Positions 4,784 through 6,362 of a stretch of 41,314 bases of DNA are shown here, in pieces. The DNA is taken from the NCBI RefSeq assembly GCF_002252665.1, contig NZ_NQKZ01000017.1, positions 1-41,314 on the forward strand, read 5' to 3'. Position 1 is the first letter of the stretch. Each line of letters begins with the position of its first letter. The translations under genes and the position numbers were made by a program. The notes under the pieces are model-generated. The model ran no database searches. It was not told the origin of the DNA and was given only the letters and a program-made list of their open reading frames with translations. The stretch is from Synechococcus sp. 8F6 (lineage in GTDB: Bacteria > Cyanobacteriota > Cyanobacteriia > PCC-6307 > Cyanobiaceae).

Positions 4784-5497
4784 ATGAAACGCACTATCCC
4801 CTTGCAACTGTCTCGCAGCCTGCTTGAAGCCGCTCGAGTTTCAGCGTCGTTGCATCATCTTGAAAGAATACCCACCAGAAATAGACTGCTTATTGTCAGC
4901 AACCATCGCAGCCTGCTAGATGCTCCCCTGCTGATGTCGGCAATCAGTCGCCCCGTGCGATTCGTCTGTCACTATTACATGAGCCAGGTGCCGCTATTGC
5001 AGCAGGCAGTTGCGCTGATGGGTGCCTTTCCACTCGAGGCTGATCAGCGAACGCAGTCGTCGTTCTTTCAGCAGTCGGCCAGGTTTCTGCAAGCCAATGA
5101 GGTGGTGGGTGTGTTTCCTGAGGGTGCGGATCCGATGGTGAAGGTCAAACCCCCCCAGCAGCTCAGCCCGTTCCATAGGGGCTTTGCCCATCTTGCCCTG
5201 AGGGTGCCTGTGGATGGCCTGGCGATCCTGCCGGTTGCGATTGCTTCAAGGGAAGAAAAGCAGGGAAGGCTTGCTCCGCTTGCCTTGTTTCGGCGCTTCG
5301 ATCCATCGGAAGCATTGTTTCAACGCGATGGCTGGCACTCTGCAATCCTTTATCGGCATGTTGATGTTTTCTTTGGCCATCCTCTGCTGATCGATGAGGG
5401 TTGGAAATCTCGGTACTGCGGCAGCAGTGGAGCTGCTCTAGCCCGAGAACTCACCCATGCCTGTTGGAGCCAGATCGCGGAAATGTTGGCCCAGTGA
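4784..5497 (+). CDS. 1-acylglycerol-phosphate-type (PlsC-like) acyltransferase
   Basis: 237 residues with the LPLAT signature: NHRSLLD with catalytic H41-x4-D46, and FPEGAD (111-116) corresponding to the FPEG acceptor-binding motif. The middle contains F-V-C-H-Y-Y-M followed by a G-A-F-P region, as in lysophospholipid and diacylglycerol acyltransferase-like proteins. There is no N-terminal membrane anchor, so it is probably a peripheral membrane protein. The next gene, 22 bases downstream on the same strand, is an alpha/beta hydrolase. In plant phytyl ester synthases (PES1/PES2) these two domains are fused in the opposite order (hydrolase first), which suggests acyl transfer to phytol, diacylglycerol or a plastoquinol-type acceptor. 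The substrate is inferred, not shown. Confidence 0.8.
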   Translation: MKRTIPLQLSRSLLEAARVSASLHHLERIPTRNRLLIVSNHRSLLDAPLLMSAISRPVRFVCHYYMSQVPLLQQAVALMGAFPLEADQRTQSSFFQQSARFLQANEVVGVFPEGADPMVKVKPPQQLSPFHRGFAHLALRVPVDGLAILPVAIASREEKQGRLAPLALFRRFDPSEALFQRDGWHSAILYRHVDVFFGHPLLIDEGWKSRYCGSSGAALARELTHACWSQIAEMLAQ

Positions 5498-5519
5498 GAC
5501 TGATCAGTCCTCCCAAACC

Positions 5520-6362
5520 ATGAACACCACCCCCAAGTCCCTGCGGCTCATCGCTTGCACATCTGCAACACCGTCTCGGCCGCTGTTTGTCTTTTTGCCG
5601 GGCATGGATGGCAGTGGTGCGTTGCTTCAACCACAGGTTCCTGGACTCAGCAGTGGCTTTGACATTCGCTGCTTGTCCATTCCCCCAGACAACCTCAACG
5701 GTTGGGACGAGTTGACCGAGCAGGTCGCCGCTCTAATCCAGATTGAGCAGCAACGGCATCCTGGACGAATGACTACCGTTTGTGGTGAATCGTTTGGTGG
5801 TTGTTTGGCGTTGAAATTGTCCACGCGCTTTCCGAAGCTGTGTGATCAACTGATTCTGGTCAATCCCGCCTCATCAGCGCAGTGTCAACCCTGGATCGGT
5901 GCCTGTAGCTCTTTGACTCAGCTGCTGCCGGCACCGATTTACCAGCTCTCCACCTTAAGCCTGTGCAATCTGCTGATTCAATCCCATCGGGTCAGCAGGT
6001 CAACACGGCAGCAGCTGCTGACTGCCATGCAGGCTGTGAAGCCTCAAAGCGCTGCCTGGAGATTGGCATTGCTCCGACAGTTCCGCCTGGAGGATCTTTC
6101 CCTTGATCGCGTGCGTCAGCCTGTTTTAATCCTGGCCTCAGAAGCGGATCGACTCCTGCCTTCCCGAAGTGAAGCGAAGCGATTGTCACGCTTTCTTCCA
6201 AACACCACAATTGTTCACCTTCCGGATAGTGGGCATGCCTGCCTTCTGGAGGATCAACTCAATTTGTCTGCCATTCTCAAGTCGCAGGGTGTTTGTCCTG
6301 ACCTATCGCTGTCCACGTTGCCGGTGAACGCGCCAGCCCAAGCGGCTGCAGCTCTCTGGTAG
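5520..6362 (+). CDS. Alpha/beta hydrolase, PES N-domain-like
   Basis: 280 residues from ATG 5520; an open frame extends back to 5457 inside the acyltransferase, but this ATG gives the natural N-terminus. Motifs: VFLPGMDGSG (24-33, oxyanion region), nucleophile elbow GESFGG with Ser91, followed by CLALKL; the later LASEADRLLPS carries the probable acid and DSGHACLLED the probable His. The GxSFGGCLAL string and the FLPGxDG start are the pattern of the hydrolase half of plant phytyl ester synthases. It is probably co-transcribed with the upstream acyltransferase. Likely role: releasing or transferring acyl groups from galactolipids or acyl-carriers. Confidence 0.78.
   Translation: MNTTPKSLRLIACTSATPSRPLFVFLPGMDGSGALLQPQVPGLSSGFDIRCLSIPPDNLNGWDELTEQVAALIQIEQQRHPGRMTTVCGESFGGCLALKLSTRFPKLCDQLILVNPASSAQCQPWIGACSSLTQLLPAPIYQLSTLSLCNLLIQSHRVSRSTRQQLLTAMQAVKPQSAAWRLALLRQFRLEDLSLDRVRQPVLILASEADRLLPSRSEAKRLSRFLPNTTIVHLPDSGHACLLEDQLNLSAILKSQGVCPDLSLSTLPVNAPAQAAAALW

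Follow-up and report, generated by a model that had tools for sequence, protein, structure and literature searches.

A closely comparable system described in cyanobacteria is the acyltransferase MFAT (slr2103 or SYNPCC7002_A0918). According to the available excerpts of PMC12048435, MFAT acts on several alcohols and makes triacylglycerol, phytyl esters, and both types of acyl-plastoquinone. Overexpression of slr2103 alone gave acyl-plastoquinol in Synechococcus elongatus (excerpts of PMC11973298). Gloeobacter violaceus PCC 7421 is without MFAT, yet it makes acyl-plastoquinol; the same excerpts of PMC12048435 describe very little triacylglycerol or phytyl ester in this strain, and acyl-plastoquinone C was not detected. 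Whereas MFAT has several ester products, Gloeobacter makes mainly acyl-plastoquinol, and this is attributed there to a narrow, MFAT-independent acyltransferase whose isolation is under way. Two strains without slr2103 orthologues are cited as producers of acyl-plastoquinol in the excerpted text of PMC11973298, and a commentary names Gloeobacter among such producers (PMC12174987). Synechococcus PCC 7942, in which MFAT is absent, makes little or no acyl-plastoquinol (excerpts of PMC12048435).

In plants, PES1 and PES2 (the ELT family) unite an acyltransferase from the LPLAT superfamily with an alpha/beta hydrolase. The same combination is found in the window, which is the whole stretch of 41,314 nucleotides from Synechococcus sp. 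8F6 that we analyzed:

4784-5497, + strand: AT, a PlsC-like acyltransferase of 237 amino acids, with the motifs NHRSLLD (HX4D) and FPEG (PF01553)
5520-6362, + strand: AH, an alpha/beta hydrolase of 280 amino acids if it starts at the ATG at 5520 (Hydrolase_4, Abhydrolase_1)

The plant proteins differ from this pair in two ways. First, PES is a single chain with the hydrolase first, whereas AT and AH are two genes with AT first. Second, the acyltransferase of PES is of the DAGAT/MFAT type, whereas AT is PlsC-like, with FPEG.

Both genes in the window are intact. A preliminary description had reported that they are adjacent and co-directional, 22 bases apart, and had quoted motifs from each, and all of this is present in the sequence. 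Scans for consensus promoters and terminators gave no usable operon signal. The neighbors of the pair encode a DoxX protein, on the opposite strand, together with a Na/H exchanger and a MarC protein. As ratios of the computed dN and dS, dN/dS was about 0.22 for AT and 0.30 for AH when compared to the pair of genome G005, and about 0.15 and 0.25, respectively, when compared to the L084 pair, which is closer to the pair in the window. By this measure, both AT and AH look to be under constraint. Elsewhere in the window, an open reading frame at 2361-2789 matched no Pfam family up to E of 0.001; its start (GDGDTIRV, LACIDAPK) resembles that of a thermonuclease, and it may be a frameshifted remnant.

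The only Pfam family that AT matched up to E of 1 was Acyltransferase (PF01553, 75.6 bits); in particular, it had no match to PF03982, the family of MFAT, up to that E value. The first motif of the MFAT proteins is of the HNGG type, in contrast to the NHRSLLD of AT. In an alignment of 13 sequences, H41, D46, and F111-G114 (FPEG) of AT were invariant. The best solved match to an AlphaFold model of AT (pLDDT of 88) was PlsC from Thermotoga maritima (5kym). By its fold and its HX4D and FPEG motifs, AT is of the PlsC type. PlsC is a lysophosphatidate acyltransferase whose known work is on lysophospholipids. AT shares its fold and its HX4D and FPEG-type motifs, but AT lies in a distinct group, is accompanied by AH in 146 of 146 genomes, and scored only 60.3 bits against the curated LPAAT model TIGR00530, which is below the cut-off of 102.95.

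To place AT, we built a tree from 30 AT, 17 PlsC-like, and 20 MFAT sequences. These formed three separate groups, and the AT group was intact in 98% of 200 bootstrap trees; the tree is unrooted, so which two of the three groups are sisters is not decidable from it, the bootstrap had not yet converged, and the AT of Gloeobacter is a long branch. Branch lengths from the center of the tree were about 2.8 for AT, 2.6 for PlsC, and 5.3 for MFAT. When profiles were compared, AT matched PlsC with E of 3.4e-22, for a set of PlsC sequences that had been chosen by their similarity to AT, and MFAT with E of 2.8e-8. AT forms a clade of its own and, by branch length and profile similarity, is nearer to PlsC than to MFAT.

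AH matched Hydrolase_4 (49.8 bits) and Abhydrolase_1 (44.3 bits). Its predicted catalytic triad is Ser91 (in GESFGG), Asp210 (DRLLPS), and His239 (SGHACLLE), all of which were invariant across 15 sequences. The predicted structure (pLDDT of 89.6) matched many alpha/beta hydrolases and did not indicate any single function. Eight genomes have two AH matches each at E up to 1e-40 (G129, G149, G176, G228, G241, G273, G311, and G317). Relatives of AH (43-44% identity) are also carried on the cyanobacterial plasmids AP017309.1, NC_014533.1, AP018204.1, and NZ_CP092420.1; in the two plasmid regions that we examined, from Gloeothece and Leptolyngbya (L271 and L272), there was no annotated acyltransferase alongside. 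When viral contigs were scanned with the AH profile, the only match was a single weak locus.

We then asked how widely the pair is conserved. Among 60 relatives, close matches (E < 1e-40) were found for AH in 16 genomes and for AT in 13, and all 13 have AH. In a scan of named genomes, we retained the best 80 loci from 505 relatives. At least 16 of these are from Cyanobium, Synechococcus, or close cyanobacteria, and the closest genus-named matches among those listed are Cyanobium and Synechococcus, which fits the proposal that the DNA came from a picocyanobacterium. In 72 of the best 80 loci, a homologue of AT is found on the same strand less than 400 nucleotides upstream of AH. The other eight have a full AT at 428 or 692 nucleotides (two loci), a partial AT (one), AH at the end of a contig (three), or no AT (two). 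With 72 of 80 loci linked among the matches listed, adjacency by chance was ruled out, and the two-gene pair that had been claimed is a conserved unit. The preliminary description would have been undercut if the pair were not conserved in neighbors; within the window's own family, the pair is indeed present in just 2 of 37 sampled genomes, but outside of that family it is widely conserved.

Across 84 loci, the neighbors of the pair include metG (44 loci), pepA (20), a plsX-like gene (16), and a fabH-like gene (10); one example each of pepA, plsX, and fabH was confirmed with Pfam. Genome G222 has metG on the opposite strand, then AT, then AH, an arrangement shared with many of the 84 loci. In four genomes that have AH and MFAT and are AT-negative in the 291-genome search described below (G040, G131, G174, and G209), metG, as recognized from its first residues, still adjoins AH, and AT is missing from between them. 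This retained synteny of metG and AH suggests that the class of genomes with AH and MFAT arose via the loss of AT. The linkage is not universal: in G296, AT is beside metG and AH is elsewhere, and AT and AH are also unlinked in G282 and G087. The MFAT gene of G174 (L253:3708-6021) adjoins a gene for an RPE65-type carotenoid oxygenase (PF03055), which is a possible link of neutral lipid esters with carotenoid cleavage.

To examine co-occurrence, we searched 291 genomes from the class with profiles for AT, AH, and the slr2103-type MFAT, at E up to 1e-40. AT was found in 146 genomes, AH in 165, and MFAT in 113. All three were present in 70 genomes, AT and AH in 76, AH and MFAT in 19, MFAT only in 24, and none of them in 102. 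No genome among the 291 has AT without AH, whether or not MFAT is present, and none has AH without either AT or MFAT. Fisher tests gave P values of 2e-62 for AT with AH and 6e-6 for MFAT in genomes with AH (with versus without AT), with the genomes treated as independent even though they are related. The 19 genomes with AH and MFAT represent 13 genera and 7 families; one family, f32, where MFAT is common, accounts for much of this class, and completeness is just 68% and 88% for two of the genomes. If each family is counted once, and given the 48% rate of MFAT in genomes with AT and AH, finding MFAT in 7 of 7 families would have a chance of about 0.6%.

AH therefore seems, from these patterns, to have two alternative acyltransferase partners, AT or MFAT. 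MFAT was found in 19 of 19 genomes that are AH-positive and AT-negative; MFAT and AT possibly do the same kind of job. MFAT itself does not need AH, because overexpression of slr2103 alone gave acyl-plastoquinol in S. elongatus (excerpts of PMC11973298), and 24 of the 113 genomes with MFAT are without AH. The genome of the window has no match to PF03982 or to MFAT.

There may be exceptions to the rule of co-occurrence. Outside of the genomes that were counted for AT and MFAT, no AT adjoins AH at the loci that we opened in G414, G418, G440, G445, G448, G482, and G507. In G418, G445, and G507 (L280, L281, and L282), the contigs with AH are 2.8-3.1 Mb, and AT is not beside AH. A wider search found 84 genomes with AH, all of them from the same class, and we take this result to bear on that class only. 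G195 and G268 are among the genomes with MFAT only, and where MFAT lies in G195 suggests that this genome is related to Synechococcus PCC 7002. One published slr2103 primer had no match in any of 9 genomes, and four primers had at least 7 mismatches in two loci.

The pair is also present in what we take to be Gloeobacter violaceus. Genome G048 encodes a 359-amino-acid protein with the same residue at every position as the solved GLIC channel, a protein of Gloeobacter violaceus, so we treat G048 as that species. G048 has AT directly before AH (with the chosen ATG as the start of AH, the two genes share a few bases) and has no match to PF03982 or MFAT. Among the genomes listed with AT, five more belong to the family of G048, f13 (G067, G081, G106, G117, and G148), and they likewise have AT and AH and are without MFAT. 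In the genus of S. elongatus, two genomes (G046 and G065) have only PlsC-level matches to AT. The KaiA of G046 is close, and not identical, to the solved KaiA of S. elongatus, so we take G046 to be related to that species. None of 14 control genomes, S. elongatus among them, had a match to PF03982.

Given the acyl-plastoquinol that is reported for Gloeobacter in the excerpts of PMC12048435, AT and AH may be its MFAT-independent plastoquinol acyltransferase; the pattern is consistent with this and is not proof. Acyl-plastoquinol was among the products that the preliminary description had suggested for the pair, and this part of the suggestion gains support from an organism that has AT and AH, has no MFAT, and makes the lipid (in the same excerpts), with plastoquinol as the presumed substrate. 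However, G048 also has a second, weak match to AT, so it contains at least one further PlsC-like acyltransferase as an alternative candidate for the enzyme that makes acyl-plastoquinol.

The preliminary description had also proposed that the two genes are a split form of plant PES. For this comparison, our query was a provisional, unauthenticated PES1 sequence, as we found no plant sequence in the collections that we searched; the acyltransferase motifs of the provisional sequence agree with the published description. The N-terminal half of this provisional PES1 scored 156 bits against the AH profile. It also matched 180 of 180 AH copies at 56-124 bits, whereas just 6 of 26 other hydrolases of related kind were matched, none of them above about 15 bits. 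(These and the following counts are of open reading frames and include repeats from overlapping loci.) The C-terminal half gave weak matches, of 31 bits at most, to 50 of 52 MFAT copies, and it matched none of the 165 AT copies and none of 18 PlsC copies. A scan of viral contigs with a half of the provisional PES gave no match.

Thus, one half of the proposal is supported and the other is not: judging by the provisional sequence, the hydrolase appears to be of the kind found in the N-terminal half of PES, but the acyltransferase is not of the PES type. We rejected a simple split of PES into two genes, as AT grouped apart from MFAT, the acyltransferase half of the provisional PES matched 0 of 165 AT copies, and the order of the genes is reversed. 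If authentic sequences confirm these comparisons, then plant PES would be AH joined to an MFAT-type acyltransferase, and the pair in the window would be a PES-type hydrolase with a different acyltransferase in the reverse order. We did not see a bacterial fusion of AH and MFAT: no MFAT frame among the matches listed is longer than 375 amino acids, and the longest AH frame among them (506 amino acids, in G048) reflects an upstream extension that overlaps AT in another frame.

The explanation that we prefer, with a probability of roughly 0.4, is that AT and AH form a conserved cyanobacterial system for neutral-lipid esters, in which AT most likely acylates plastoquinol and AH acts in the same pathway or beside MFAT. 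With its HX4D motif, AT would transfer a fatty acyl group from a thioester to a lipophilic acceptor (an alcohol or a quinol, and most probably plastoquinol), to give acyl-plastoquinol. AH would be a serine esterase or lipase of the type that is fused in plant PES; it might draw the acyl groups for this transfer from membrane lipids, or turn the ester over, or, alternatively, it might serve beside MFAT. What we infer is which substrate and which acyl donor are used, what AH does, and whether AT and AH are in physical contact. The case for acyl-plastoquinol is built on the co-occurrence, the synteny with metG, the pair in Gloeobacter, the absence of AT from two genomes of the S. elongatus genus and of PF03982 from S. 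elongatus, the likeness of AH to PES, and the neighboring genes related to fatty acids (plsX and fabH). Because the genomes are related to each other, the co-occurrence is confounded as support for it. The independence of MFAT from AH (as reported in excerpts of PMC11973298), the unlinked AT and AH of G296, G282, and G087, and the nearness of AT to PlsC count against it.

The main rival to the acyl-plastoquinol explanation is a cycle of membrane-lipid remodeling, in which AH deacylates a galactolipid or phospholipid and AT reacylates the lyso-lipid (a cycle of the Lands type); neutral lipids would not be involved. A lipase-like gene and an acyltransferase gene in one conserved unit would suit such a cycle. 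Also, the closest solved fold to AT is PlsC, and AT is nearer to PlsC than to MFAT by branch length and by profile (for PlsC sequences that were picked by similarity to AT). However, AT scored below the LPAAT cut-off (60.3 versus 102.95 bits), and remodeling would not account for the presence of MFAT, a neutral-lipid acyltransferase, in 19 of 19 genomes that have AH and no AT, or for the resemblance of AH to the hydrolase half of PES (in the provisional sequence). We consider this cycle unlikely.

Another possibility is that the pair makes a different ester, such as phytyl esters, triacylglycerol, or carotenoid (xanthophyll) esters, instead of acyl-plastoquinol. There are precedents in the excerpted sources: phytyl esters and triacylglycerol are products of PES (PMC12526585), for which a link to xanthophyll esters is also described (PMC9111173), and MFAT accepts several alcohols (PMC12048435). 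But in Gloeobacter, where the pair is present and MFAT is absent, triacylglycerol and phytyl ester are both very scarce (PMC12048435, excerpts), and we view this as rather improbable. Finally, it is quite doubtful that AH is a catabolic esterase that works in opposition to AT by degrading the neutral lipid esters that are made by AT or MFAT: AH does retain its Ser-Asp-His residues and is found with either of two different acyltransferases, but this would not explain why such a hydrolase is fused to a synthase in plant PES or why 24 of 113 genomes with MFAT are without AH.

If AT and AH do act on plastoquinol, then a broader history can be proposed, which we consider somewhat unlikely as a whole. 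AT and AH would be an early form of neutral-lipid synthesis in cyanobacteria and the MFAT-independent plastoquinol acyltransferase system of Gloeobacter as well as of other cyanobacteria; AH would have later gained MFAT as a partner; AT would have been lost in several of the lineages with AH and MFAT; and plant PES would be AH fused with an MFAT-type partner.

In the literature that we searched, we found no prior description that names the pair, although an earlier mention may exist. AT and AH are a concrete, testable two-gene candidate for the MFAT-independent synthesis of acyl-plastoquinol. AH is, in addition, a possible source of the hydrolase half of plant PES. And the proposal predicts which of the cyanobacteria that lack slr2103 should make acyl-plastoquinol.
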